Below are positions 1-14,890 of a stretch of 64,000 bases of DNA, piece after piece (position 1 is the first letter of the stretch; each line of letters starts with the position of its first letter). The translations under genes and the position numbers were made by a program. Location: the NCBI GenBank assembly GCA_029242325.1, contig JAQWUD010000026.1, positions 1 to 64,000 on the forward strand, in the 5' to 3' direction. This stretch comes from Luminiphilus sp. (GTDB lineage Bacteria; Pseudomonadota; Gammaproteobacteria; Pseudomonadales; Halieaceae). Under the pieces are notes generated by a model. It was not told the origin of the DNA, searched no databases, and saw only the letters and a list, made by a program, of their open reading frames with translations.

Positions 1-1230
1 GGTATAGAAGAACCCGTCATCCGCATGCGCTTCTGTATTTTGATCTGGGTCGGCATAGCCCAAGAACATCCCCGAACCACGCGCAGTAATCTCGCCATCC
101 TCACCGTCGGGGACCACCTCGCCATTGTCATCGACAATACGCACCTCGTAGCCATAAGGGTGGCCGTCGGTAGTCGCCGCTAGTTGAGCATCGTCGAGCC
201 AGCCCAGCGTAATAATGGGCGCCTCGGTGCTGCCATAAACGCGAACCGTCCGGCAGTTTTCGAGCACGTCATAAGCCCGCAATACCAACGCGGGAGGCAC
301 CGCAGCGCCACCACAGGAAAAGACCCGCATAGTCGGCAATGAATCGCCTCGACGTTCGGCCGCGTCTAATAACTCCTGTAGAAAGGGCGTAGCGCCAACT
401 GTCATCGTCCCGCCAACCCGGTGGATAAAATCAATGCACTGATCGGCGTCCCATCGCTCCATCAACGCCGAGCGCCCGTCGCGAACAAAAGGCAGGTTTA
501 GACCGCTGCTATAACCGGTGATGTGGGTAATCGGTGACGGCATTATCATGACGTCGGAAGCATGGGTACCGGAATGCTCGCTCGTATTATCGAGAATACG
601 AATAAGTGTGTTGTGGCTGTGTAATACCGCCTTCGGGAACCCGGTAGTGCCGGAAGTATAGAGCCGGCACTTTACGGAATTGGGATCAATACCTGGCAAA
701 TCAGCTTCGCTAGCTGGCTCGCAGTCAATCAGCTGCTCATATTGGGTGGCACCGGCATAGTCGGTACTCGATCGCAATGTCACGACATGCTCGAGACTAG
801 GAAGTTCCGAGCGAAGCCGCGAGATCATGTTGATATAATCGATGCTCCGATGTTGATCAGGGATAAATATCAGCTTGCTCGCGGCATCACTCAAAATGAA
901 GCGCAGCTCGGCGTCTCGGTAAATAGGCACAATGGGATTTACAACCAATCCCAGAGCCGCCGCCGCAATGTCGATAACAGCTCCCTCTCTCCAGTTGGGT
1001 AACTGAAAGCTGATCACATCACCCTGGCGCAAACCCAAAGAGTTTAGTGCCGCAATCAGCCGCAAGGCCTCTTCAGCAATAGCGCCATAGGTTGCGTCTG
1101 GTTCGTTCTCTAAATAAATGGCAACGTCATCGGGTTGCGCCTGCGCCTTTCTGAATGCTTCTACCGCTATCGTCGTATTGCGCCATTCTGAGGCGTCGCG
1201 GGACAGCCGGGCTTCGCTAATGGTGATCAT
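1..1230 (-). CDS. AMP-forming acyl-CoA synthetase (partial, C-terminus beyond the left edge)
   Basis: This gene is absent from the ORF track because its stop lies outside the window; I translated it by hand, 410 codons open to position 1. It should activate a carboxylic acid to its CoA thioester through an acyl-adenylate. The P-loop-like motif YTSGTTGFPKAV sits at about residue 191 and YGSTEAP at about residue 332, both diagnostic of the ANL superfamily; the C-terminal lid with the catalytic lysine is missing because of the edge. The ATG overlaps the stop of the upstream alcohol dehydrogenase (ATGA), so the two are translationally coupled. As the first CoA-forming step it fits island 1 as an acid degradation cluster. 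The substrate cannot be read from sequence. Confidence 0.93.
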   Translation of the reverse strand, partial: MITISEARLSRDASEWRNTTIAVEAFRKAQAQPDDVAIYLENEPDATYGAIAEEALRLIAALNSLGLRQGDVISFQLPNWREGAVIDIAAAALGLVVNPIVPIYRDAELRFILSDAASKLIFIPDQHRSIDYINMISRLRSELPSLEHVVTLRSSTDYAGATQYEQLIDCEPASEADLPGIDPNSVKCRLYTSGTTGFPKAVLHSHNTLIRILDNTSEHSGTHASDVMIMPSPITHITGYSSGLNLPFVRDGRSALMERWDADQCIDFIHRVGGTMTVGATPFLQELLDAAERRGDSLPTMRVFSCGGAAVPPALVLRAYDVLENCRTVRVYGSTEAPIITLGWLDDAQLAATTDGHPYGYEVRIVDDNGEVVPDGEDGEITARGSGMFLGYADPDQNTEAHADDGFFYT

Positions 1231-2243
1231 AATTCGATAAGCACCTTACACTGTGAGGTGGGCGATCTAAGCGCCTCAAAAGCCGCGGGCATCTCATCTA
1301 GCGTCACCACATCGGTAATCATGGCAGTCGCGTCTATTCGTTGCTGTCCCAGCATTGCGATAACCGTCTCGAAATCGTCGCGGGTATAGGCAATGGCAAA
1401 GTAAAGTCGAAGCTCTTTCACCAAAGCCTGCAGAGGCACAATTGTATCCGGATGTTCGCAAACGCCGACCGGGACAATGCGCGACCGACGAGGGGCAATC
1501 TCGATCGTCTCCTGCAGTAAGCCCGGGGCACCTACACACTCAAAAATAACGTCCGGAGCGCCCCCGCTCACGTCGCCGAACTCCTCGCCCAGCGTGGCGC
1601 CGGGAGTCAGGGTGCCGGTAGCACCCAGCTGCGTCGCCAACGCGAGCCTTTGTTCGGCCATCTCAGAGACCAACACGTGCTGTGCGCCAAAAAATTGACA
1701 CCACAGCGATACCGCGAGGCCCACCGGGCCACCGCCAATAATGAGCACTCGCTCGCCAGCCTTGAGCTGGGCTATGCGCACAGCGTGCAGCCCAACAGCC
1801 AGAGGCTCAATGAGCGCCGCGCTCTGCATGGCCAAGTCATCAGGTAATTTAAGCGTCTCACTGGCGCCGGTTTTGACATATTCGGCAAATCCGCCGGGGC
1901 TATTCATCCCCGTCAATTTCACTTGAGCACACTCAAATGGACGTCCGTTGACGCACGACAAGCAGACCCCGCAGCCGATGAAGGGCAGGGCCGTCACACG
2001 ATCACCAATCTCCCATTGATCTTTTAAGCCAGACCCCACCTCGGCAACATGACCACAAAATTCATGTCCCAAAATCGAGTCGCACTCCGCGGCGAAAGCC
2101 CCTTCTCGGGTCGAATGCAGATCGGTACCGCAAATGCCGCAATAGCTCACCTTTACCACCAACTCTGCAGCTTCAGGCGAGGGGTCTGGAACCGTCTCCA
2201 CCTGCAAAGGCTCTCCCAGATTCTTCAATACTGCTGCCTTCAT
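1227..2243 (-). CDS. Zinc-dependent alcohol dehydrogenase, MDR family
   Basis: A 338-residue medium-chain dehydrogenase that should oxidise a secondary alcohol or polyol with NAD(P). Catalytic zinc ligands are visible as CGICGTDLH (Cys38) and GHE (His60-Glu61). The structural zinc site has all four cysteines (Cys91, 94, 97, 105). The Rossmann glycine motif GGGPVGLA lies near residue 170. It most resembles the threonine/butanediol/sorbitol dehydrogenase branch. It is first in a minus-strand pair with the acyl-CoA synthetase (4-bp overlap) and is divergent from the P450 gene; the 307-bp gap between them holds a candidate double operator. It could oxidise a hydroxylated product of the P450, but that is inference. 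Confidence 0.93.
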   Translation of the reverse strand: MKAAVLKNLGEPLQVETVPDPSPEAAELVVKVSYCGICGTDLHSTREGAFAAECDSILGHEFCGHVAEVGSGLKDQWEIGDRVTALPFIGCGVCLSCVNGRPFECAQVKLTGMNSPGGFAEYVKTGASETLKLPDDLAMQSAALIEPLAVGLHAVRIAQLKAGERVLIIGGGPVGLAVSLWCQFFGAQHVLVSEMAEQRLALATQLGATGTLTPGATLGEEFGDVSGGAPDVIFECVGAPGLLQETIEIAPRRSRIVPVGVCEHPDTIVPLQALVKELRLYFAIAYTRDDFETVIAMLGQQRIDATAMITDVVTLDEMPAAFEALRSPTSQCKVLIEL

Positions 2244-2550
2244 AACGCCATCACCTCTACGCTTGCAATTGAGTCAAGCTCGTTGCAATCCATAAAACCA
2301 CGTTTACCAAAATGCCGCATCAAACTTTTTACTTGCTCACCTTAATGCTTTCAGCAAGTCTAATAGACAACACCCTGCAATCACTTTTTTGACTTTAACT
2401 CAAATTAAGTTGAGAATAACTCAAATAATTTCTAAGCCGCTGACGGAAATTGCAACGGTTTTCTACTCACAATATCAAGCTCCGGGACCCTGTAGTTCTT
2501 AAACCGACGCAGATTCACTGGAGACAAATCACTCACCACCGAGCGCACTG
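2244..2550. promoter_or_regulatory. Divergent promoter region of adh/acyl-CoA synthetase and P450
   Basis: This 307-bp gap has no convincing gene; track ORFs reaching into it are shadows. It is AT-rich around 2380-2435 and holds two tandem 15-bp inverted repeats (listed separately). A third arrangement, CTCAA-ATTAAG-TTGAG, is formed by the inner half-sites. No clear sigma-70 pair could be assigned. Confidence 0.6.
2389..2424. promoter_or_regulatory. Candidate TetR double operator A
   Basis: Two 15-bp inverted repeats, TTGACTTTAACTCAA (2389-2403, one arm mismatch) and TTGAGAATAACTCAA (2410-2424, perfect TTGAG-N5-CTCAA), have centres exactly 21 bp apart. The same pair with the same spacing recurs at 5887-5922. 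The distances to the flanking start codons (about 130-180 bp) are similar at both loci. Assignment to the TetR encoded at 3854-4489 is inference from proximity. Confidence 0.6.
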
Positions 2551-3789
2551 ATGACCACACAAACCGAGACGCTAGACTTATCCAGCGAAGCCTTTTTAAG
2601 GGAACCGCATGCCGCCTACAAGCAAGGCAGGGAGCAGTGTCCGGTCTATCGGGTACCCGACCAAAACGTTGTGATGGTATTTGGTTACGACGAGGTGCTG
2701 GAAGCACTGATGAAACCAAAGATCTTCTCGAGCAAAAATGAAGAGTCGATTCTGGGTGCGTCAGTTTATAACCCTAAGTGCCAGGAAATTTATGAAAAGG
2801 GCTGGCCTCAGGTCCCTACCCTGCTCACTAACGATCCCCCCTCCCATACTCGATTTAAAAAACTGGTGAATCAGGCCTTCACAAGAGATCGAGTCGCCGG
2901 AATGCAAGACCATATCGAAGAGATGGCCGACAGCTTAATTGACGCCTTTATTGATAAAGGCGAATGTCAATTTATCGACCAATTTGCAAACCCGCTTCCT
3001 TGTCAGGTCATCGCTGAGCAGCTTGGCTTTTGCGAGCAGGACATCGCCAAAGTGAAAGTCTGGAGCGATGCCTTTATTGACCTTATCGGGACCGAAATGA
3101 CCTCTGAAGAGCAGGTGGAGCGAGCGACGCGGGTGGTGGAGTTTCAGCATTACATGAAACAGTGTCTGGACGAGCGCCGCACCCAACCGCGAAAAGACGT
3201 ATTGACTGACCTGGTCAACGCTCGGGTCGATGACGAGACGCCCCTGAATGAAGCTGAGTTATTAAATGTTGCTCAGGCGTTGCTTGTGGCGGCAAACACA
3301 ACCACTTCGCATATGCTCTCGGGTGGACTCCTGACCCTGATCGACAACCCAGAGCAGTACGCTAAGGTCCGAGATAACCCGGCACTGATACCCAATATGG
3401 TCGAAGAACTCCTCAGATTTCAGACGCCTACTCAGGGCATGTGGCGACGGACCTCTGAAGACACTGAGTTAGGTGGCGTAACGATTGAGAAGGGGACAAT
3501 GCTGATGCTGTTGTTTACGTCAGCAAACCGCGACGATAAATATTTCACTAACCCCGATCACTTTGAAGTAGACCGAGATTTTTCGACGGCGCACGTTGCG
3601 TTTAGTCGCGGAGTCCATACCTGCATCGGCATGATGCTTGCACGCCAAGAATTGGTCTGCGCATTTAGACAAATCTTTAAGCGACTCGATAACATCAGGC
3701 TGTCAGAGAACAGCCCACGACCCCAATACGAAGCAAACTTGATCTTTCGCGGCCTTGACCAGCTCAACATCACGTTTACGACCCGGTAG
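2551..3789 (+). CDS. Cytochrome P450, bacterial soluble class
   Basis: A 412-residue heme monooxygenase of bacterial length without a membrane anchor. The heme-binding loop FSRGVHTCIG places the thiolate ligand at Cys358; the K-helix ExxR is Glu286-Arg289; the C-helix DPPSHTRF contacts heme propionates. The I-helix reads AANTTT (247-252), so the usual acid before the conserved threonine is replaced by Thr250, which can affect proton delivery. No ferredoxin or ferredoxin reductase gene is nearby, so redox partners must be encoded elsewhere. It is convergent with the TetR gene and divergent from the dehydrogenase. It probably hydroxylates the growth substrate or an early intermediate; no substrate is assignable. 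The SD is weak, so the start is moderately certain. Confidence 0.95.
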   Translation: MTTQTETLDLSSEAFLREPHAAYKQGREQCPVYRVPDQNVVMVFGYDEVLEALMKPKIFSSKNEESILGASVYNPKCQEIYEKGWPQVPTLLTNDPPSHTRFKKLVNQAFTRDRVAGMQDHIEEMADSLIDAFIDKGECQFIDQFANPLPCQVIAEQLGFCEQDIAKVKVWSDAFIDLIGTEMTSEEQVERATRVVEFQHYMKQCLDERRTQPRKDVLTDLVNARVDDETPLNEAELLNVAQALLVAANTTTSHMLSGGLLTLIDNPEQYAKVRDNPALIPNMVEELLRFQTPTQGMWRRTSEDTELGGVTIEKGTMLMLLFTSANRDDKYFTNPDHFEVDRDFSTAHVAFSRGVHTCIGMMLARQELVCAFRQIFKRLDNIRLSENSPRPQYEANLIFRGLDQLNITFTTR

Positions 3790-3853
3790 GCCGTCGCGGC
3801 GAGCCCGCAGGGACTCTGGCGACAGCGGATCAGGGCGGGCGTTGGCCTGAGAC

Positions 3854-4489
3854 TCAGTGATTGGCAAACCCGCACATGGGCAGCATGGCCTGTAAAAATA
3901 AACGGTGCGCGTCTTTCAAGCCGATGCCTTTGTCGAAATAAACAGACGAGCGCAATCCAATGGTGAGCGCATAACACACCTCAGCAGCATCAACTGCGTT
4001 CTGCCCCAGCGTAGAGGGTGCTTCCTCAAAAAGCGTGACTAAATAGGATTTGCATACTTCATCGAATTGATTTTTTGACCGACACAGTTCGGAATGATTC
4101 ACGGCCACACCGAAGCACTCCAGCATAATGCCAATCTCCTTGCGGGATCGCGCCTTACCTTTGAACCAAAAGTCAGCAAGAGCGTGAATCTGGTCCAGCG
4201 GTGTTTCTCTGCTTAATGCTTCGACCTGTTCCAAAATGCGGCCTGCAACCGACTCAAAGTACTCGAGCAAAATCGCGTCTTTACCGGAAAAGTAATAGCA
4301 GAGATGGCTAGCTGACATGTCGGCGCGGTTGGCGATATCTTGTAGCGACGTATTGACGTAGCCTTCGGCTTCGATGCAGTCGTGCAAGGACTTGAATATT
4401 TTACGGCGGCGTCGCTCCCCGGGGGCAACCGGCTTGTCTGAAGATTGTTTTTTTATTGCCAAAGTCGACTCACCGCATAACACAAACAC
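3854..4489 (-). CDS. TetR-family transcriptional regulator
   Basis: Up to 211 residues: an N-terminal helix-turn-helix (ADMSASHLCYYFSGKDAIL, about residues 53-72) matches the TetR signature, and the C-terminal half is a variable ligand-binding helical domain. The track start is a GTG; a TTG at 4462 (AIKKQSSDKP) preceded by GGTGAG is an alternative. It lies 123 bp downstream of the acyl-CoA dehydrogenase on the same strand, so both may be driven from the promoter at 5759-5950, giving autoregulation through the double operator there. The likely effector is a CoA thioester or the catabolic substrate, as in many TetR proteins beside acyl-CoA genes (inference). Confidence 0.92.
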   Translation of the reverse strand: MFVLCGESTLAIKKQSSDKPVAPGERRRRKIFKSLHDCIEAEGYVNTSLQDIANRADMSASHLCYYFSGKDAILLEYFESVAGRILEQVEALSRETPLDQIHALADFWFKGKARSRKEIGIMLECFGVAVNHSELCRSKNQFDEVCKSYLVTLFEEAPSTLGQNAVDAAEVCYALTIGLRSSVYFDKGIGLKDAHRLFLQAMLPMCGFANH

Positions 4490-4612
4490 TAGCGATCCAT
4501 GTTACCGAATGGTTATGGTCGTGGGAAATCGCGTGCCAAAGCCCATAGATCCTAAGGCCTGCCTAGCCACCCGCCAAGAGCGGACCGGGTGGGTGACCAG
4601 GATACCTGCTCA

Positions 4613-5758
4613 TTACAGGCCCAGTGAGCGCCCAATAATCTCCTTCATAATCTCGGTTGTCCCGCCGTATATCGTTTGCACACGACCGTCCCGCCAGGCT
4701 CGGGAGATGCTGTAATCGTCCATGTATCCATACCCGCCATGGAGTTGGAGACATTTATCGTTCACTTTGTTTTGTAGCTCCGTGGTCCACCACTTCGCCA
4801 TGGCTGCCTCCTCCGGGCTGAGCTCATTGCGGTTTAAGGCTACAACGCAGCGATCGACAAATTCCTGCCCTATGCGTATTTCGGTATTCATCTCCGCCAA
4901 CGCAAAGCGGCTATTTTGGAAAGAACCGATGGCTTGGCCAAATGCCTCTCTTTCCTTCACATAGGCTAGCGTCAGCTCAAAGCTGTATCGCGCCGCAGTA
5001 ATGGCCGATATCGCAATGTTCAGCCGCTCCTGAGGTAAATTAGACATCATGTAATAGAAGCCCTGATTTTCGCTCCCTAAGCGGTTCGAAACAGGTACGC
5101 GACAATCGGCAAAAGACAGCTCAGCCGTATCCTGGCAGTGACGACCGATTTTTTTAAGATTATTACTACGTGTGAAGCCCGGCGTGCCCGCCTCTACAAC
5201 CATCAGGGTGATACCTTTATGTCGATCAGTCCCTGTGCGAGCCGCTAACACCAGCACATCGGCGTTGATGCCATTAGAAATAAACGTTTTAGACCCGTTA
5301 ACCACATAGTGATCGCCCTTTCGCACGGCGGTTGTCGCCAAACGACCCAAGTCAGACCCAACACCCGGCTCGGTCATTGCGATAGCAGAAATCAGCTCGC
5401 CCGAACACAAGCCCGGTAACCACCGCTGCTTTTGTGCCTCATCGCAGAATTCAATGAAGTACGGAATGATGATGTCATTATGCATGGCGATACCCGAGCC
5501 CGCGCTGCCGACACCCGCTAACTCGAACTCCTCCATGATGATCTGGTTAAAGCGAAAATCGTCGACCCCCGCACCCCCGAGCTCGGTAGCCACTTGCGTG
5601 CCTAAAAAACCGCCGCTTCCCGCTGCAATGAACATCGAGCGATCACAGATACCGTTCGCCTCCCACCGCGCGTTATGAGGCACGACCTCTGCCTGCACGA
5701 ATTTTCGGAAGGCGTCTCGAAACAAAACATGATCTTGTTCGAAATGATTACGCTCCAT
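4613..5758 (-). CDS. Acyl-CoA dehydrogenase, long-chain/isovaleryl type
   Basis: Flavoenzyme of 381 residues introducing the alpha,beta double bond into an acyl-CoA. I start at MERNHFEQ (ATG at 5758, preceded by GGTGGGG) rather than the track start at 5827, whose extra 23 residues are not ACAD-like. The C-terminal motif IYGGTTEIM carries Gly where short/medium-chain enzymes carry the catalytic Glu, while LPQERL (Glu244) supplies the base position used by long-chain and isovaleryl enzymes. The FAD/substrate motif MTEPGVGSDL is present. It is divergent from the Rieske oxygenase and upstream of the TetR gene. It probably acts on the CoA ester made by the synthetase at 1-1230. Confidence 0.95.
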   Translation of the reverse strand: MERNHFEQDHVLFRDAFRKFVQAEVVPHNARWEANGICDRSMFIAAGSGGFLGTQVATELGGAGVDDFRFNQIIMEEFELAGVGSAGSGIAMHNDIIIPYFIEFCDEAQKQRWLPGLCSGELISAIAMTEPGVGSDLGRLATTAVRKGDHYVVNGSKTFISNGINADVLVLAARTGTDRHKGITLMVVEAGTPGFTRSNNLKKIGRHCQDTAELSFADCRVPVSNRLGSENQGFYYMMSNLPQERLNIAISAITAARYSFELTLAYVKEREAFGQAIGSFQNSRFALAEMNTEIRIGQEFVDRCVVALNRNELSPEEAAMAKWWTTELQNKVNDKCLQLHGGYGYMDDYSISRAWRDGRVQTIYGGTTEIMKEIIGRSLGL

Positions 5759-5886
5759 GGATCCCCACCGTGATTTTGAGAAAAAGGCGCTGCGCGCTGG
5801 CAGCGAAGACGCTCTGTGTCCATCCAAGGCATCTGATCACCCGGCCAGTGGCGATGGTAACCACTTTCAAAAGGCCCGGCAATAAA

Positions 5887-5922
5887 TTGAGTGTATTACA
5901 AGAAAAATTGAGTTCTTTTCAA
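5887..5922. promoter_or_regulatory. Candidate TetR double operator B
   Basis: TTGAGTGTATTACAA (5887-5901) and TTGAGTTCTTTTCAA (5908-5922) repeat the TTGAG-N5-CTCAA pattern with centres 21 bp apart, as at 2389-2424. It stands between the divergent acyl-CoA dehydrogenase-tetR genes and the Rieske operon. Arms are less perfect than in site A. Two dyads two helical turns apart are consistent with a pair of TetR dimers bound on the same DNA face. Confidence 0.55.
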
Positions 5923-6021
5923 TTAAAGTTCCGAAAACGGATTTAGTACGATATGCTCTCGAGAGTTGCGAGGGCGCCCATGCAGCGGCCTACTTCAATA
6001 CCGCAGTCAGAGGAAACTACC

Positions 6022-7422
6022 GTGGCCAAACAACACGCCCTTTATGAACCCAGCAGACATTCAGCCCAAAGCTATGAGGACATCCTGGCCTCTGATGCCG
6101 TGCCCTCTCCTGATTTTTATCGGGAAGGTGCAAACCCGGCCGCCGCACTGGAGCCATACGCCACGTCCCGTTACTACGACCCCGGTTTTTTCCAAAAAGA
6201 AGTGGATTACCTCTGGCCCAAAGTCTGGATATGGGCCTGCCGAGAAGAAGAAATACCCAATATCGGCGATCACGTGGTCTTTGATCTTGCGGGTTATTCT
6301 TTACTCATTGTTCGTTCATCTGCTTCGGAAATCAAAGCGCTTCACAACTCATGCTTGCACCGCGGACGCCAACTCATTGAATGTGACGGCCAAGGCGCCA
6401 AGGTGCTCCGCTGTCCCTTTCACGGTATGGCTTGGAACCTCGATGGATCATTAAAACTCAACCCGTTTGCCTGGGATTCGCCACAGTGGGAAAGCGAAGA
6501 CACGCGCCTACCCGAAGCCCTTGTCGCCACCTGGGGAGGCTTTGTCTTTATCAATATGGACCCCGCCGCCGCGCCCCTGGAGGACACGCTGGGCCCTATA
6601 CCCGATCACTTCGCACGATACGAATTGGAAAACCGATATAAGGCCGTGCACGTTAGCAAGAAAATCCGCGCGAACTGGAAAGCATCGACCGAAGCCTTCA
6701 TGGAGACGCATCACGTCGTTGGTACGCACCCACAAGGGCTACCTATGACTGCGGACTCTAATACCCAGTATGACCATCCCAGTGAGTATGTCGGGCGGCA
6801 AATCTGCGCGCACGCAGTGCAAAGCCCTCATATTGCCGGAGAACTCGCTGAGCAAGAGATCTTCGACGCGTTTTTCGGTTCCGGGCAGCACGATGTAGAC
6901 GACGAATCGAGACTGCTTGTGCCCGAAGGAATGAGCGCCAGAGCCTACGCTGCGCAGATTATGCGCACGCAACTGTCGACCATCACGGGCGAGGATTACA
7001 GTGAAGCAGGGGACGCCGAATTTACCGACTCGCTAATGTATAACGTCGCGCCAGCGATGAGTTTCTGGGGCGGCTTTTATCAAAATATCATCTACCGATT
7101 TCGGCCCAACGGTAACGACCCAGAGAGCTCGATTATGGATATCGTGATTCTTAGACCCGTACCGAGAGACGGGCCCCGCCCAGATCCCGTTCCCATCATG
7201 CATCTCGACTTTGATGATCCCGTGACGCTGGCCGGCGAAACGATGGGCGAGGGGCTTGCCGTCGTATTTGAGCAAGACGCCATTAACCTGCCATGGGTCC
7301 AGAAAGGTCTCCGTGCCAGCCGAACCGGCACGGTGGAATTTACGAACTATCAGGAGATGCGCCTTCGCCTGCATCATCGACTGATCGATCGCTTAATTGC
7401 AGAAGGAGAAGCCGCGGAATGA
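6022..7422 (+). CDS. Rieske non-heme iron oxygenase, alpha subunit
   Basis: Terminal oxygenase of an aromatic-ring or related hydroxylating system. With the GTG start at 6022 (AGAGGA seven bases upstream) it has 466 residues; the track ATG at 5953 would add 23 residues without a good SD. The [2Fe-2S] Rieske ligands are Cys111-x-His113 and Cys131-x2-His134; the mononuclear iron site begins with EAFMETHH, His231-x4-His236. No beta subunit, ferredoxin or reductase gene follows, so it may be an alpha-only oxygenase using electron carriers from elsewhere. It heads a plus-strand series and overlaps the next small gene by ATGA. Its substrate is unknown. Confidence 0.94.
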   Translation: MAKQHALYEPSRHSAQSYEDILASDAVPSPDFYREGANPAAALEPYATSRYYDPGFFQKEVDYLWPKVWIWACREEEIPNIGDHVVFDLAGYSLLIVRSSASEIKALHNSCLHRGRQLIECDGQGAKVLRCPFHGMAWNLDGSLKLNPFAWDSPQWESEDTRLPEALVATWGGFVFINMDPAAAPLEDTLGPIPDHFARYELENRYKAVHVSKKIRANWKASTEAFMETHHVVGTHPQGLPMTADSNTQYDHPSEYVGRQICAHAVQSPHIAGELAEQEIFDAFFGSGQHDVDDESRLLVPEGMSARAYAAQIMRTQLSTITGEDYSEAGDAEFTDSLMYNVAPAMSFWGGFYQNIIYRFRPNGNDPESSIMDIVILRPVPRDGPRPDPVPIMHLDFDDPVTLAGETMGEGLAVVFEQDAINLPWVQKGLRASRTGTVEFTNYQEMRLRLHHRLIDRLIAEGEAAE

Positions 7423-7811
7423 GGTCAACAATATTTGCGCTATCAGTCTTGGCAATCTGCTTTTCATTAGCGTCCTATCAGGCGGTCGCAGACGTCGCAG
7501 AATCGTATAAATGCAAAATGAATGCAGGCGTGACCAGAGCGCAAATTGCCGAGATGGGCGAAACGTATATCAAGCTTGGCGAATCCAAAAACTTTAGCGA
7601 TTTTCAGCTCAGTATTTTATTCCCCATGTATACGTCCGATATGTCAGCGGGCACCTTCTTCTGGAACGGTACCTCTCCCAGCCTCAGCAGGCTAGAGGAA
7701 GCGATTGCCATATGGGAAAGCCCTGAAAACTCCGAAGCCCAGACGTTATGGCTGAAATACGTTAAAGACTGCGAGAGCGCCAGTCTCTTCAGCTTCATAC
7801 CGATTAACTAG
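7419..7811 (+). CDS. Small exported protein of unknown function
   Basis: I do not recognise this 130-residue protein. The start at 7419 overlaps the Rieske stop (ATGA); the track ORF from 7293 is an upstream extension in another frame of the oxygenase. A signal peptide is clear: MRSTIF, a hydrophobic core LAICFSLASYQ and a likely AVA|DV cleavage site. The mature part has two cysteines (one near SYKC, one near VKDC) that could form a disulfide. Coupling to the oxygenase suggests a linked periplasmic role such as substrate capture, but this rests only on position. Confidence 0.75.
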   Translation: MRSTIFALSVLAICFSLASYQAVADVAESYKCKMNAGVTRAQIAEMGETYIKLGESKNFSDFQLSILFPMYTSDMSAGTFFWNGTSPSLSRLEEAIAIWESPENSEAQTLWLKYVKDCESASLFSFIPIN

Positions 7812-7857
7812 TCCCCACTACAAGCACGACCCGTAGCGGCGAGACCGGAGAACACCA

Positions 7858-8658
7858 ATGCTCATTGCGGAAAATTATCACTCTATGACGATAGAGCGGC
7901 GTGAAAACGGCGTCGCCATCGTCACGCTTAACAGACCCAAAAAGCTCAATGCTGCTGATAGCGTCATGCACACAGAGCTCGCTCGCTTCAGCACTGATTT
8001 TGCCAATGATGATGATCTACGAGCACTGATCATTACTGGCGCTGGCCGTGCCTTCTGTGCTGGCGGAGATTTCAGTCCAGAAGACCAGGTCTCGGGCGGT
8101 GACGACGGTAAAAAGCTCTGGAGAGAGTCCCGTCAGATTGTGGAAAACATGCTCGCCTGTGAAAAACCGATTATCGCAGCCGTTAACGGGTATGCACTGG
8201 GACTGGGCGCTACGGTGGCACTACTCGCGGACGTAGCTGTGGTATCACCCTCGACTCAGTTTGCCGATACGCATGTCAATATGGGGATAGGTGCTGGCGA
8301 TGGCGGGCAGGTGATATGGCCCTTTCTTATCGGCGTCAATCGCGCCAAGTATTACCTTATGAGTGGTGACAAAATTGGCGGTAGAGAGGCGGTAGAAATG
8401 GGCCTCGCAAGCTTTATGGTTTCTGAAGACGAACTGTTATTGCCTCGTGCGATCGAGATCGCCTCGAAGCTCGCGGACGGTGCACCGCTTGCGGTGGCCG
8501 CATCAAAAATGGCGGTCAATGCCTACCTGAGATCGGTTAGCGCCATGGTCTTCCCTCTCGCGGCGCACGCTCAAGAAAACACAATGGCGAGTGCCGATCA
8601 TCAGGAGGCCATTCTGGCTTTTCGAGAGAAACGGTCTCCCCACTTTAAGGGGCGATAG
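7858..8658 (+). CDS. Enoyl-CoA hydratase/isomerase (crotonase) family protein, atypical active site
   Basis: A 266-residue crotonase-fold protein. The oxyanion-hole segment CAGGDF is present near residue 68, and NGYALGLGA forms the second half of the site. The two hydratase glutamates (rat Glu144 and Glu164) are not found: the GGGCEL position reads GLGATV and the QPEI position reads DTHV. It is therefore unlikely to be a simple hydratase and could be an isomerase, C-C bond lyase or thioester hydrolase of the superfamily. A GGAG SD precedes the ATG. It sits between the Rieske/exported-protein pair and an MDR reductase in a plus-strand series. Confidence 0.88.
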   Translation: MLIAENYHSMTIERRENGVAIVTLNRPKKLNAADSVMHTELARFSTDFANDDDLRALIITGAGRAFCAGGDFSPEDQVSGGDDGKKLWRESRQIVENMLACEKPIIAAVNGYALGLGATVALLADVAVVSPSTQFADTHVNMGIGAGDGGQVIWPFLIGVNRAKYYLMSGDKIGGREAVEMGLASFMVSEDELLLPRAIEIASKLADGAPLAVAASKMAVNAYLRSVSAMVFPLAAHAQENTMASADHQEAILAFREKRSPHFKGR

Positions 8659-8728
8659 CATGTTTGCCGCCCCTCGGGCACCGCTTTCCCCGCAGCCAAA
8701 CGCTTAACTACAGCAAAGGACCCAGTCG

Positions 8729-9727
8729 ATGTCAGAAACCTATAGAAAAATAGTCGCGCACAAGTATTCGAAGAACTTCCGGGAAGCTAGCGAGATCGTC
8801 ACTGCTGACATCGTTGAGCCCGGTCCGGGTCAATTGCTGATTAAGACGCGTTTTGGGGGAGTGAACGCATCGGACGTCAATATTAGCGGCGGCGTCTACT
8901 TTTCAGACGGAAAATTTCCCTTCGATCTCGGCTGCGAATCTGTTGGCGAGGTTGTCGCGGTTGGACCCGATGTGACCCAGTTCAAAGTGGGCGACGCAGT
9001 CGCCTCACCGCAAATGGGTAGTGCTTATACCGAGATGCTCTGTCGTGATATCGACCAATTCATCAAGGTACCCGATTGTTCTCCCGACTATTTAGCGGTA
9101 TCGGTGGCGGGCTTAACAGCCTCCATTGGGTTATTCGAAGCCGGCAACATGGGGTCGGGCGAGACCGTTCTGATCACAGCGGCAGCGGGCGGTGTGGGTA
9201 ATTGGTGCGTCCAACTGGCCAAACTGGCAGGCAATCATGTCATCGGGACCTGCAGCACAAAAGAGAAAGCGGAGGAGCTCAAAGGCATTGGTTGTGACCG
9301 AGTCATCGTTTACTCAGAAGAAGATCTTGGAGGCGTTCTGGCGACCGAGTATCCCGACGGCATCAATTTAATTTTCGAGCAGGTCGGGGGTGCAACCTTT
9401 GACACCTGTGTCGATCACCTTGCGCAACGCGGGCGAATACTGATTTGCGGTTTCATATCGGAATATATGGGAGATCCCGAAGCAGTGACTGCCCCCCGGA
9501 TTTATCACAAGCTGCTATGGAAATCAGCGCAGCTGCAGGCATTTCTCTATAAAGATTGGCCCGATCAGCTCGCAAGCCACCTTGAAAAGCTGATGGGGCA
9601 AGTTGCTAATGGTGACATTAAGCCCCTACTCGACCCCAAAGTGTTTCAGGGTATAGAAAGCGCAGCAGACGCGCTGGAATACCTTCATGCGGGAGAGAAC
9701 ACAGGCAAGGTCGTGGTGAGGTACTGA
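8729..9727 (+). CDS. Zinc-free MDR oxidoreductase (quinone oxidoreductase/enoyl reductase-like)
   Basis: NADPH-dependent medium-chain reductase of 332 residues. The nucleotide motif AAAGGVGNWCVQLAK is near residue 152; the zinc ligands of alcohol dehydrogenases are absent, which places it with quinone oxidoreductases, zeta-crystallin and prostaglandin reductase-3-like enzymes. Members reduce the double bond of enones, quinones or enoyl-thioesters. It follows the crotonase by 70 bp, so it may reduce an unsaturated intermediate in the same pathway (inference). Confidence 0.9.
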   Translation: MSETYRKIVAHKYSKNFREASEIVTADIVEPGPGQLLIKTRFGGVNASDVNISGGVYFSDGKFPFDLGCESVGEVVAVGPDVTQFKVGDAVASPQMGSAYTEMLCRDIDQFIKVPDCSPDYLAVSVAGLTASIGLFEAGNMGSGETVLITAAAGGVGNWCVQLAKLAGNHVIGTCSTKEKAEELKGIGCDRVIVYSEEDLGGVLATEYPDGINLIFEQVGGATFDTCVDHLAQRGRILICGFISEYMGDPEAVTAPRIYHKLLWKSAQLQAFLYKDWPDQLASHLEKLMGQVANGDIKPLLDPKVFQGIESAADALEYLHAGENTGKVVVRY

Positions 9728-9792
9728 CTGCGGCGATGCCCACAGCTACGATACGAGCACATGCTCTCAGGCGTAAGACACGGGATTGACCT

Positions 9793-10335
9793 ATGAAAAA
9801 ACATAGCTTGGCTTGGTCATTGATATTTCTCGGAGCCATGACACCGATATGGGCGTCTGCCTCGGAACTTGCCTCACCTGACCCATCTAATACTCTCCAA
9901 CGCAATGCAGGCCCTGTAGCGGATCGGCTCGCGATCCGCGAGTTGATTGAGTCCTACAACGCTGCCGTTATAGAGAAAGACGCCGACAAATGGATTGCTA
10001 ACTGGGCTGAAGATGGCGTCTGGAATCTGGGCGGGGGCAATATCTATGGCAAGGAGAAAATCCTCGAATCGTGGTTGACCATCATGGCGCCCTACGAACA
10101 CGCCGCCGTCTTCGGCCAACCTATATTCATCCAGGTAGAAGGTGACGAGGGCATTGCTCACTGGCATACCAATGAGCGACTAAAGCTGTTCAGCGGTAAC
10201 GAAATGCTGGCTGTCGGGCGTTATAAAGATCGCTACATCCGCTCAAATGGAGTCTGGAAAATCAAGCTCCGGGATTACAGCGTGGTCTTCACCAGCACCA
10301 CCGCACCGGTCTCTGCCAAAAAGAGTGATGAGTGA
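9793..10335 (+). CDS. Exported SnoaL/NTF2-like protein
   Basis: A 180-residue protein with an N-terminal signal peptide (MKKHSLAWSLIFLGAMTPIWASA, cleavage probably after ASA). The mature part carries the alpha+beta cone fold signature seen in SnoaL-like and scytalone-dehydratase-like proteins: DRLAIRELIESYN, then a region with WIANWAEDGVW and a C-terminal VWKIKLRDYSVVF strand. Family members are small dehydratases, isomerases, epoxide hydrolases or binding proteins. Export is unusual for such enzymes in a CoA pathway and suggests action on the substrate before uptake. It pairs with the next gene, a second exported member. Confidence 0.82.
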   Translation: MKKHSLAWSLIFLGAMTPIWASASELASPDPSNTLQRNAGPVADRLAIRELIESYNAAVIEKDADKWIANWAEDGVWNLGGGNIYGKEKILESWLTIMAPYEHAAVFGQPIFIQVEGDEGIAHWHTNERLKLFSGNEMLAVGRYKDRYIRSNGVWKIKLRDYSVVFTSTTAPVSAKKSDE

Positions 10336-10450
10336 ACGCACCCTGCTCCGCAGTGCGGGACCATGAGGCAGATAACAACATCTGGACTCGCTCCCTACTT
10401 TGACGCCACCGGAGCGAGACACTCCCCAACAGCATAAAAAGGAGCTTTTC

Positions 10451-11062
10451 ATGTCAATTAATAGACGCCAGTTATTAGCCAGCAGCGCCGCAGTGAGCGC
10501 GATGGGTACCGCAATGAACACCTCGGCAAAAAAAGCCGATAGCCGCGCCTCGCAAGAACCTATTAGTTCATTCGACGGCTCGCAGGACACGCTTCCCGGG
10601 GCGACCGGCTTTAATATCGAAGACAGGCTTGCCATCGCGAATCTCTGTAACTCTTATGCCAGCGGTTACGATGCCGATGATTTTGAGCGCTGGCTCATGC
10701 AGTTCACTAGCGACCCCGTTTGCACCATTTATAATCCTGGCGCAGAACCCATCCGGGTCGCGGGAGACGAGTTCCGTCACCTGTTTAAGCAATTTCGCAC
10801 CAGCGCCACGAATGACAATGTGCAGCCCCTGCATTACAACGGCAATCTGATGATAAAGGCGCAAACAGTAGATTCTGCGATTGCCGAGATGTATATGTTC
10901 TATATTCCTTTCGACGTCACGGCACAAGACAATAGCGGTATCCACTCAGGCGCCCTTAGCATCACTGGCACCTCCCGATACCGGTTTGAGATGGTGAAAG
11001 GTGGCGATAATGTCTGGCGTATTGCCGAGTACACCATCTCGTTTGATCAGAAGACCGTCTGA
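10451..11062 (+). CDS. Tat-exported SnoaL/NTF2-like protein
   Basis: With the ATG at 10451 (AAAAGGAG upstream) it has 203 residues; the track start at 10400 lies in an untranslated stretch. The N-terminus MSINRRQLLASSAAVSA has a twin-arginine followed by a mildly hydrophobic alanine-rich segment, suggesting Tat export of a folded protein. The body begins with EDRLAIANLCNSYASGYDADDFERW and ends WRIAEYTISFD, matching SnoaL-like domains and loosely the preceding gene, so the two may be diverged duplicates. Tat export can imply a bound cofactor or pre-folded oligomer. Exact activity is unknown. Confidence 0.82.
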   Translation: MSINRRQLLASSAAVSAMGTAMNTSAKKADSRASQEPISSFDGSQDTLPGATGFNIEDRLAIANLCNSYASGYDADDFERWLMQFTSDPVCTIYNPGAEPIRVAGDEFRHLFKQFRTSATNDNVQPLHYNGNLMIKAQTVDSAIAEMYMFYIPFDVTAQDNSGIHSGALSITGTSRYRFEMVKGGDNVWRIAEYTISFDQKTV

Positions 11063-11263
11063 CGATCCGGAGTGTTGGTGGCCAATAACGTGTCTAAACG
11101 GGGCGCTGAGCTGGATCACATTCACGTCACAGCCCTGACTAAATCATCGGCCTCTAGCCAATGAGCCAGACCGATGATACAGCCCTGTGCTACCCGAAAA
11201 TGGCGCTGCTGCGCGCGTGCGCCAACTTTTAATTACTACACAACCCGCAGAGAACATACAAAA

Positions 11264-12112
11264 ATGAAATTAGTACGACACGGAGAACCGGGAAAAGAAA
11301 AACCGGGCCTAATAGATAGCCGCGGTGAAATCAGAGACCTATCGGCGATATTAGATGACGTTAACGGCTCCACTTTGTCAGATGACGTGCTCCAGTCGCT
11401 TCTGGGTCACGACCCCTCATCACTTCCAGTGATCGCCCCAGAGACCCGCCTCGGCCCTTGTGTTGGCAATGTAGGAAATCTAATTTGTATTGGCTTGAAC
11501 TTCGAGGACCATGCCAGAGAGGCAAATTTACCCATTCCTCAGGAGCCGGTCGTATTTATGAAGTCCACCAGCGCAATAAGTGGCCCTTTTGACAACGTGA
11601 TCCGCCCAAGAGATTCGCAAAAAATGGACTGGGAGGTTGAGCTGGCAGTTGTCATTGGCAAACGCGCAGCGTACGTAACGGAGGAACAAGCAGAGAGCCA
11701 CATCGCGGGCTACTGTGTTGCAAACGATCTGTCTGAGCGCGAATTCCAGTTCGAGCGAGGGGGTCAATGGGACAAAGGGAAAAGTTGCGAAACCTTCGCT
11801 CCCATTGGACCCTGGCTGGTAACGCGAGACGAAGCTGCCGACATGACGAATCGCGCAATGTGGCTAGAGGTCAACGGGCATCGCTATCAAGACGGATCCA
11901 CATTGCATATGATCTTCCGGCCGGGTTTCCTCGTGCATTATCTTTCTCGATTTATGACGCTGATGCCTGGTGACGTTGTGCTTACCGGCACCCCGCCAGG
12001 AGTCGGTTTTGGGCTGACACCACCCGTGTTTCTGGAGCCGGGAGATTCCATCACCCTGGGTATTGAAGGGCTTGGCGAGCAACGAGCGGTTGTTGTCGAA
12101 GCGCCCCTTTGA
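11264..12112 (+). CDS. Fumarylacetoacetate hydrolase (FAH) family protein
   Basis: A 282-residue member of the FAH superfamily, which cleaves C-C bonds of diketo acids, decarboxylates or hydrates 2-oxo acids using a divalent metal. The start is MKLVRHG at 11264; the track ORF adds 30 non-homologous residues. The core begins ICIGLNFEDHAREA, and the metal-ligand signature is visible as DWEVELAVVIG and VANDLSERE. The C-terminal LTGTPPGVGFGL is typical. It is 40 bp upstream of the FAD oxidase gene, so a 2-oxo or 2-hydroxy acid may pass between them. Confidence 0.92.
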   Translation: MKLVRHGEPGKEKPGLIDSRGEIRDLSAILDDVNGSTLSDDVLQSLLGHDPSSLPVIAPETRLGPCVGNVGNLICIGLNFEDHAREANLPIPQEPVVFMKSTSAISGPFDNVIRPRDSQKMDWEVELAVVIGKRAAYVTEEQAESHIAGYCVANDLSEREFQFERGGQWDKGKSCETFAPIGPWLVTRDEAADMTNRAMWLEVNGHRYQDGSTLHMIFRPGFLVHYLSRFMTLMPGDVVLTGTPPGVGFGLTPPVFLEPGDSITLGIEGLGEQRAVVVEAPL

Positions 12113-12152
12113 ATATGCAAAGGTAGTGAAGCAGAAGATTGAGGCAGTGGGC

Positions 12153-13532
12153 ATGACGGACATTATTAGTGCATTAGCGGAGTGCCTCGGTGACCAGCAC
12201 GTCATACTTGGCGCTGATATCACAAACAGAGCAACGAGTTACTGGCGTCCGGAACCAACGCAAACCCTAGCTTTGCTTAAACCTCGAAGCACAGATGAAG
12301 TTAGCCAAATTTTGGCATTGTGCCATGCCCATAACCAACCGGTGGTGGTGCAGGGCGGGCTCACCGGCTGCGTAGACGGCGCAATATCGACAGATCAAGA
12401 AGTGATCATTTCCCTTGAACGAATGAACAAGATCGAGTCAATCGACCCTATTGGCGGCACGGCGACGGTTGAGGCCGGTGTCATCCTAGAAGTACTCCAC
12501 TCTACCCTCGCCGACGAGGGGTTGATGTTCCCCCTCGACCTTGGCGCACGCGGGAGCTGCACTATTGGCGGCAATATCTCGACTAACGCCGGGGGCATCA
12601 ACGTATTGCGATACGGCATGATGAGAGACTTGGTGCTTGGCCTTGAGGCTGTGCTGGCAGACGGCACGGTCATCTCCTCAATGAATCAAATGATCAAAAA
12701 CAACGCGGGTTATGACATCAAGCAGCTCTTTATCGGGTCGGAGGGTACGCTTGGGGTAGTAACGCGCGCGGTCGTCAAAATCCACCCCCGGCCGACAAGC
12801 AAAAATTCGGCAATGGTGGCGGTTCAAGATTTCGATGCCGTAACCGGCTTTTTACAGTACTTGCGCGGCGCCCTCGGCGGCACGTTAAGCGCCTTCGAGG
12901 TGATGTGGGGCAACTATTTTTATGCAGTGACCGAACCCGGCTGGCACCGTTCGCCGATGCAGCGTGATCATCCTTTTTACATCATGATCGAGACCGAAGG
13001 CTCGGATCCGGAGACTGACACGAGTCGCTTCAACGACACACTAGAGCGGGCTTTTGAGACGGAGATCATTAGCGACGCGGTCATCCCGAAATCAGAAGCC
13101 GAACGCAAATCACTCTGGGATATCCGAGAAAATTTTGAGGCGATTCTCGAAAAGCAGCCTTATTACCTCTATGACGTTAGCCTACCTATTAAAGACATGC
13201 CAGAATACGTATCGAGAGTGCATACCGCTTTGCACGAACAGTTTACTGATGCCGCATGCTATGTGCTGGGTCACGTTGCGGACGGCAACCTACATCTGTT
13301 TCTCTGTCCCGGCGAACCCGGTAACTGGCATGAAAGCTGCGATCAGGTCGTTTACGGCCCTTTAGAAAGCTTCAACGGATCTATCTCGGCAGAACACGGA
13401 ATAGGAACTGAAAAGATTAGCTGGCTAGGCATCAGCCGAAGCGAGCCGGAGATCGCGTTAATGCGGCAACTGAAAACCACGATGGACCCCACTAAAATAT
13501 TGGGCGCCGAGCGAGTCATACCGCGAACTTAG
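12153..13532 (+). CDS. FAD-binding oxidase, GlcD/D-2-hydroxyacid dehydrogenase type
   Basis: Flavoprotein of 459 residues oxidising a 2-hydroxy acid (glycolate, D-lactate or D-2-hydroxyglutarate type). I start at MTDIISALAE (12153, GAGG eight bases upstream); the track start at 12063 overlaps the FAH gene. The FAD_binding_4 segment QGGLTGCVDGA is near residue 70, TNAGGINVLRYG follows, and the C-terminal FAD-oxidase domain has the metal motif HVADGNLH and SAEHGIG. No GlcE/GlcF partners are present, so it probably works alone, passing electrons to an electron-transfer protein or quinone. It is the last gene of the plus-strand island 1 series. Confidence 0.92.
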   Translation: MTDIISALAECLGDQHVILGADITNRATSYWRPEPTQTLALLKPRSTDEVSQILALCHAHNQPVVVQGGLTGCVDGAISTDQEVIISLERMNKIESIDPIGGTATVEAGVILEVLHSTLADEGLMFPLDLGARGSCTIGGNISTNAGGINVLRYGMMRDLVLGLEAVLADGTVISSMNQMIKNNAGYDIKQLFIGSEGTLGVVTRAVVKIHPRPTSKNSAMVAVQDFDAVTGFLQYLRGALGGTLSAFEVMWGNYFYAVTEPGWHRSPMQRDHPFYIMIETEGSDPETDTSRFNDTLERAFETEIISDAVIPKSEAERKSLWDIRENFEAILEKQPYYLYDVSLPIKDMPEYVSRVHTALHEQFTDAACYVLGHVADGNLHLFLCPGEPGNWHESCDQVVYGPLESFNGSISAEHGIGTEKISWLGISRSEPEIALMRQLKTTMDPTKILGAERVIPRT

Positions 13533-13612
13533 CCTAGAGAAATCCAAGGCGGGCTGGATCACCTAGCCGCTGCTGCCAACGCAAAAACTTCTGGACAGTA
13601 TTTGCCGCGGGT

Positions 13613-14828
13613 TTAAGGCTCTCCGGCCTCCATAGACTCCAGCTTCTCTTGCTCTGCAATCCACTGGCTCTCCAGCACCGCCAATTCCAGCTTTATTGCG
13701 CCCTCTTCCCTGAGCAACTGAGCCAGCTCCTCACTGTTTGACTGCTCATAGAGTTGTCCGTCGGCCAATCGGCCCTGAAGCACCAGCAATGACTGTTCAG
13801 ATTCTTCGATACACCGCTCTAATTTTTGCACTGCTTTTTTCAGCGGCTGTAATTGCGCTCGCTGATCGGCCGCAGATTGTCGACGCGCTTTCCGATCCGC
13901 CGCCGGAGCAGACGAACTGATCTGTACATCAGAGGCATCAGGTTCTTGCGAGTTTCCTGCCGATAAAACCTATTTTTCGTAGCTCTCTGCGTCACCAGAA
14001 TAGTCAGAGACCGCCCCGTCGTGGACGAGCAGCAGCTGCTCCACCGAGTTGCGGAGTAAATGACGATCGTGGCTGACCAGCACGATAGCGCCCGCGTAGT
14101 TCTGAAGTGCCACCTCAAGGGCATGACGCATATCGAGATCAAGGTGGTTCGTGGGCTCGTCAAGAATCAGTACGTTCGGCGCCTGCCACACGACATTTGC
14201 CAGCGCGAGTCGTGCTTTCTCCCCGCCCGAAAAAGGTCGAATCGCCTCTTTGGCGCGGTCTCCACGGAAATTGAACCCACCTAAAAAATCGAGAATCTCT
14301 TGATCCCGCGCCTTGGGAGATAACCTTTGCAAGTGAAGAAGCGGACTCGCATCCAGATCAAGTACTTCGAGCTGTTGCTGGTCAAAATAGCCTATCTTCA
14401 GATGAGCCCCCTCGGTGCGCTCTACCGCCATTAATGGGAGGTCGCCAGTAAGACTTTTGAGCAGCGTCGACTTGCCGGCGCCGTTTTTCCCCAACAGCCC
14501 AATACGATCCCCGGGACTCAACGACAACGACACTCCCGACAACACTGCTCGCTCCCGATGTCCCGACGACGCGTCGCTGAGAGTCAGTAGCGGGTCACTG
14601 ACTTTACCGGGCGCCGGAAAGGTAAAGGCTGAAGGGTGAGTCGACGTGTGCCTGAGCGACTTTCTGCATGCGCTCAAGCTCTTTAAGCCGCGACTGTGCC
14701 TGGCGCGCTTTAGTGGCTTTAGCCCTGAAACGACGAACAAAATCCTCGATATCCGCGATACGTCGCTGCTGTTTCTCACATGAGGCCTGCTGTTGTGCCA
14801 TATGGGAGATACGCAGCCCCTCCACGTC
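13613..14828 (-). pseudogene. Decayed ABC-F ATPase (YheS/Uup-like) fragment
   Basis: The remains of a YheS-like ABC-F protein, with three lesions. The N-terminal ABC domain is missing: similarity begins only at the interdomain linker (AKATKARQAQSRLKELERM, in the frame of the 14604-14825 ORF). Near 14628 a one-base shift moves the reading into the frame of 13970-14875, which carries the second ABC domain: GLLGKNGAGKST, the FSGGEKARLALA signature and LILDEPTNHLDLD. At about 13970 an in-frame TAG follows SYEK where homologues have Trp; the same frame then continues as the C-terminal coiled coil (LQPLKKAVQKLE to the stop at 13613). The 5' end abuts the hydantoinase operon terminator. A functional copy may exist elsewhere. 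Confidence 0.85.
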
Positions 14829-14838
14829 GATCGACCAT

Positions 14839-14864
14839 AAAAAAGCCGGGCTGAACCCGGCTTT
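14839..14864 (-). terminator. Rho-independent terminator of the hydantoinase operon
   Basis: On the minus strand AAAGCCGGG-TTCAG-CCCGGCTTT is a perfect 9-bp stem with a 5-nt loop followed by a T run, starting 26 bp after the stop codon of the hydantoinase B gene. It also marks the break point of the ABC-F fragment. Confidence 0.88.
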
Positions 14865-14890
14865 GTGAGTGCCAAAGAGCCGGAGCTAAG

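Follow-up and report, generated by a model that had tools for sequence, protein, structure and literature searches.

Paired TTGA-N7-TCAA dyads at two divergent gaps of a Luminiphilus oxidative-catabolism island are predicted operators of its TetR-family regulator

Two divergent intergenic regions of an oxidative-catabolism locus of Luminiphilus sp. carry the same arrangement of paired inverted repeats, which raises the question of what protein might recognise them. The window analysed here is a stretch of 64,000 nucleotides (contig JAQWUD010000026.1, positions 1 to 64,000; assembly GCA_029242325.1; genome G000). In it, two 36-bp blocks, at 2389-2424 and 5887-5922, each consist of a pair of TTGA-N7-TCAA dyads. 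The first block lies in the divergent gap between the genes of a zinc alcohol dehydrogenase (ADH) and a cytochrome P450 (gap 1), the second in that between the genes of an acyl-CoA dehydrogenase (ACAD) and a Rieske oxygenase (gap 2), and the only genes between the blocks are those of the P450, a TetR-family regulator and the ACAD. As judged by sequence comparison, the four dyads are very probably operators of the TetR protein encoded at 3854-4462, two in each divergent promoter region. All four 15-mers described in the initial annotation were confirmed, including the perfect copy at 2410:

2389..2403: candidate operator dyad 1 of gap 1, TTGACTTTAACTCAA, four of five arm pairs
2410..2424: candidate operator dyad 2 of gap 1, TTGAGAATAACTCAA, five of five arm pairs, the perfect copy
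5887..5901: candidate operator dyad 1 of gap 2, TTGAGTGTATTACAA, three of five arm pairs, the weakest copy
5908..5922: candidate operator dyad 2 of gap 2, TTGAGTTCTTTTCAA, four of five arm pairs

Within both pairs the dyad starts, and hence the centres, are 21 bp apart. Caution is called for by the imperfection of three of the four copies and by the position of both blocks inside AT-rich gaps, and single dyads are unremarkable in the window (TTGASN5STCAA with at most one mismatch: 8 observed, 6.5 expected). When the double pattern TTGAN7TCAA-N6-TTGAN7TCAA was searched with up to three mismatches across the whole 2.76-Mb genome, 14 sites were obtained, among which 2389 (no mismatch) and 5887 (one mismatch) ranked as the top two; one further site had two mismatches and eleven had three, and the backwards control gave two sites. 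The pairing is thus rare genome-wide. Genome-wide statements made here derive from such pattern searches and, since the pattern was taken from the window sites themselves, the independent evidence is that of the comparative data.

The same tetR gene, with 80-95% identity and in the same gene order, was found in four further genomes (G105, G099, G096 and G061), which together with G000 form the five-species set. Both double dyads were present in all five of these tetR-bearing Luminiphilus species. Loss of the dyads where tetR is kept, which had been named beforehand as the outcome that would speak against the proposal, was therefore not observed, and the retention of both pairs supports the suggested joint control of the predicted ADH/CoA ligase-P450 and ACAD-Rieske promoters. 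Arm positions were invariant at 15 of 16 in each gap, as compared with 15 of 20 (gap 1) and 4 of 20 (gap 2) of the other block positions; outside the blocks, the invariant columns numbered 42 of 271 (gap 1) and 71 of 227 (gap 2). At gap 2, conservation is restricted to the arms, as would be expected of dyad recognition. When 4352 tetramer-dyad-by-spacer combinations (spacers 0-16) were counted blind, TTGA-N7-TCAA was the sole one to occur in each of the ten gap sequences (two per species, five species), the runner-up occurring in five.

Across 57 genomes of the genus, the double pattern was detected in the five tetR-bearing genomes and in G095 and G094, with no hit in the backwards control. 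The G095 pattern is located at a contig end and adjoins the same ADH and CoA ligase genes, i.e. it is a fragment of the same locus, while the double dyad of G094 was discounted, as it lies inside a coding frame. Genomes G067 and G111 have kept the ADH (95-96% identity) and the CoA ligase (92%), and have no tetR, no island and no dyads beside the retained gene pair. Their DNA is homologous to the window up to 2324, 65 bp before the first dyad, and again from about 13555-13617, within an ABC-F gene; the DNA upstream of their ADH leads almost straight into that gene. One group thus has, and the other lacks, the intervening 11-kb stretch (window 2325-13555), which begins on the P450 side of gap 1 and extends to the flavin adenine dinucleotide (FAD) oxidase; by this comparison, ADH and CoA ligase are outside the island, a point that the initial annotation had missed. 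In a third genome, G086, the ADH-CoA ligase pair is found on a short contig, likewise with no dyad. The lack of dyads in G067, G111 and G086 indicates that the dyads come and go together with the tetR island. At the right island edge, the ABC-F ATPase gene (window 13613-14867) is broken, with stops and with shifted and missing parts, and is intact in G111.

More distant TetR homologues (43-59% identity; n = 29) were found in other Halieaceae genera and in three further families of the order. Another gene cluster, with an SDR gene, two CoA ligases, an LLM oxidase and a different Rieske protein, is found at most of the Halieaceae loci that were examined; L049 was read in detail. In all 29 loci TTGA-N7-TCAA was present at most 300 bp upstream of tetR, nearly always as TTGAA-N5-TTCAA, against a background of 0.03 per kb elsewhere in the same loci. 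It was again the only one of the 4352 dyad types to occur in every locus, the next non-overlapping type being found in 6 of 29. Four homologues of about 30% identity showed no such dyad upstream of tetR. The sequence association of the dyad with this TetR subfamily, across different gene contexts, is therefore strong.

The regulator has a TetR_N helix-turn-helix (PF00440, 37.6 bits, cut-off 24), which places it in the TetR family, and its C-terminal half gave a weak match to the BetI-type TetR_C_6 domain (PF13977), just under the Pfam cut-off. An AlphaFold model based on five close sequences was all-helical and of low confidence (pLDDT 55). The recognition-helix region reads SASHLCYYF in Luminiphilus and mostly SASHLLYYF in the other homologues, and dyad position 5 is G in 60% of the Luminiphilus arms vs. 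A in 98% elsewhere. The five TetR proteins with double dyads form one clade, whose placement among the single-dyad TetR proteins is weakly supported.

The genes that would be affected are arranged as follows:

1..1230, minus strand: acyl-CoA ligase, behind ADH and truncated by the window start
1227..2243, minus strand: zinc alcohol dehydrogenase (ADH), first gene left of the first double operator, outside the island
2551..3789, plus strand: cytochrome P450, first gene right of the first double operator
3854..4462, minus strand: TetR-family regulator, with an alternative GTG start at 4489
4613..5758, minus strand: acyl-CoA dehydrogenase (ACAD), first gene left of the second double operator and upstream of tetR
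6022..7422, plus strand: Rieske oxygenase alpha subunit, first gene right of the second double operator, start uncertain (5953-6022)
7858..13532, plus strand: remainder of the island in the Rieske direction, with enoyl-CoA hydratase, zinc dehydrogenase, two SnoaL-like proteins, FAA hydrolase and FAD-linked oxidase

The gene order of 7858..13532 is kept in the relatives, and no dyad precedes any gene of this part. Solved relatives of the P450 and of the Rieske protein are only remote. The single dyad TTGAGTTTGTTTCAA at 16783-16797 is not taken for an operator. It falls in the opening codons of a gene for a hydantoinase B-like protein (MPATIVETNSKK), and the corresponding sequence of G096 differs at a synonymous site, which points to a coding explanation. 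A dyad on contig C12 (37525) was set aside because it is inside a reading frame.

What the sequences show directly is that the dyads exist, that they are conserved and that they go with this TetR subfamily in different gene contexts. From this we infer a mode of action whose steps are binding, repression, a ligand, cooperativity and co-transcription of tetR. One TetR dimer would bind each 15-bp dyad (TTGAR-N5-YTCAA), and the two dimers of a block would be about two helical turns apart. As long as no inducer is present, TetR would block RNA polymerase at both gaps and thereby hold down ADH/CoA ligase, the P450, ACAD, the series from Rieske to FAD oxidase and probably tetR itself behind ACAD. 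Release would be brought about by an inducer, probably a substrate or a CoA-linked intermediate of the oxidative pathway. A single or double dyad before a TonB-receptor gene would add uptake to the regulon.

Such dyads were observed at TonB-dependent receptor genes. In G000, a TonB-dependent receptor gene on contig C14 is preceded by the dyad TTGAATATTACTCAA / TTGAGTAATATTCAA (L088, 2994-3008), and the identical 15-mer occurs at the TonB-receptor site of G105, although the surrounding upstream DNA differs. Genome G095 has a perfect single dyad before its TonB-receptor gene, and G061 has a full doublet (L095, contig C12 of G061, 3081-3169) within 89 bp identical to its own gap 2; this repeat may be a promoter duplication or an assembly artefact. 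The tetR-free G094 has no dyad at this site. Among the distant loci, an exact dyad 46-172 bp before the start of the TonB-receptor gene was found in 7 of the 12 in which such a gene was found. As dyads precede TonB-receptor genes in both lineages, uptake seems to be part of the regulon, which probably extends to this distant gene, again a point missed in the initial annotation.

Repression is suggested by the position of the dyads relative to predicted promoters. At gap 1, a sigma-70-like P450 promoter (TTGACT-17-GAGAAT) was predicted exactly on the block in four of the five species; the left arm of dyad 1 coincides with its -35-like box, dyad 2 overlaps the -10-like box GAGAAT, and the spacer is conserved alongside the arms. 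In 24 of the 29 distant loci, a divergent promoter-like sequence has a dyad arm as its -35 box (TTGAAT/C) and a TANNNT box exactly 17 bp away, compared with 4% at control positions. A protein bound to these dyads would keep RNA polymerase out, which speaks for repression, and the same occlusion argument applies to the predicted P450 promoter. The tetR gene lies 123-150 bp behind the ACAD gene on the same strand, and neither a dyad nor a promoter-like site on the tetR strand was found in the gap between the two, so that autoregulation through the ACAD promoter, as had been suggested earlier, is plausible as to gene position and would call for co-transcription of the two genes.

Several observations weigh against parts of this reading. 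The dyads of gap 2 sit between predicted promoters and not over them, and repression at this gap is accordingly less certain:

5952..5957, plus strand: likely Rieske -10 box TATGCT, the same in all five species and 44-45 bp away from where dyad 2 starts
5854..5882, minus strand: weak promoter-like match TTGCCG-17-TACCAT for ACAD, -35 box beside dyad 1, found in four of five species

In the window, the region directly upstream of tetR lacks a dyad, and no dyad was found at the TonB-receptor site of G096 and G099. Two dimers per block are also a less certain element, as most other genera have a single dyad and not a doublet. The identical 21-bp spacing described previously holds for gap 1 in all five species; at gap 2 it is 21 bp in the window, in G105 and in G061, but 22 bp in G099 and 23 bp in G096, so that the spacing conserved at this gap is only about two helical turns. 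The cooperative two-dimer binding that was proposed from this geometry is accordingly the weaker part of the earlier reading, as the spacing is fixed only at the P450 promoter and ranges over 21-23 bp at gap 2.

The arrangement at gap 2 might also mean that the same regulator, bound to the same operators, is an activator or has a dual function there, acting just upstream of both -35 regions. The invariant TATGCT and the ACAD match abutting dyad 1 would place the dyads near -48 of each promoter, and activation of a divergent enzyme gene over more than 200 bp is on record for one TetR-family protein of Streptomyces, AtrA (PMC3511530). We consider activation unlikely, however, since at the P450 gap, as at 24 of 29 homologous loci, it is the -35 box itself that the dyad overlaps, and since the promoter assignments at gap 2 on which it depends are weak matches to consensus.

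It is very improbable that the dyads belong to another regulator, for instance one of the FNR/CRP type, and that TetR is a mere neighbour. The arms do resemble the FNR/ANR consensus TTGAT-N4-ATCAA, but this has six bases between TTGA and TCAA, whereas seven were found at all four copies, in all ten gaps and at 29 of 29 distant loci. In addition, the dyad accompanies the TetR subfamily from one gene cluster to another (29 of 29) and is missing where tetR is missing, and a global regulator would be expected to leave pairs elsewhere, of which the genome has none. Chance, or conservation of promoter boxes alone, can practically be dismissed in spite of the -35-like TTGAC/TTGAG, the AT-rich gaps, the conserved gap 1 spacer and the sigma-70 fit of TTGACT-17-GAGAAT, as promoter boxes need no mirror-image arms, only the arms are conserved at gap 2 (15/16 vs. 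4/20) and TTGA-N7-TCAA is unique among the 4352 dyad types.

Operators of TetR thus remain the preferred explanation of the four dyads, and comparison with known systems shows both likeness and difference. In the tetA-tetR divergent region, two 15-bp palindromic operators are bound by dimers of the TetR protein encoded nearby (PMC3511530). Two dyads likewise stand in each of the two divergent gaps here, in all five species. As to overlap of operators with promoters, the picture is mixed: it is predicted for the P450 promoter (four of five species) and for promoter-like sequences at 24 of 29 homologous loci, while the gap 2 dyads lie beside predicted promoters. The present system differs from TetR/tetO in its operator sequence, in having the regulator flanked by two such gaps, in its catabolic enzyme targets and in a tetR gene that is not itself divergent to a target. 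In Pseudomonas, the TetR-family repressor AtuR/RdmA of acyclic terpene and diffusible signal factor (DSF) catabolism acts at a CoA-linked catabolic operon whose promoter holds two inverted repeats, AGCAAGCGCTTGG and CCAAGCGCTTGCT, with a spacer of 40-42 bp (PMC9973270). Its half-sites are not matched here, where the arms are TTGA/TCAA, within TTGAR-N5-YTCAA, and the centres are 21-23 bp apart. The choline-responsive TetR-family repressor BetI was the best curated family match, but the 46 bits lie far below the NCBIfam cut-offs of 118 and 201, and no choline or betaine genes are nearby. A search of the open literature on a Luminiphilus TetR or on 21-bp operator pairs yielded nothing on point, and the literal motif was not found in the literature searched, which does not show that it is undescribed. 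The mechanism is that of classical, textbook TetR biology; what is added is a predicted operator for an uncharacterised subfamily.

As to the origin of the doublet, one tentative possibility, which we regard as rather doubtful, is that an ancestral single TTGAA-N5-TTCAA became a doublet as TetR took on the Luminiphilus oxidative-catabolism island. Position 5 would have changed from A to G alongside an L to C change in the recognition helix, and the doublet would have been copied to the TonB-receptor promoter, as the 89 identical bp of G061 might reflect. If true, the duplication of an operator and the rewiring of a regulon could be traced here. A testable operator is assigned here to a TetR subfamily of Halieaceae and three other families of the order, with a predicted regulon that would comprise the oxidative-catabolism island and a TonB-dependent receptor. 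Loci with one dyad, two or none offer a natural series in which changes in operator number and spacing may be studied together with changes in the targets of the regulator.

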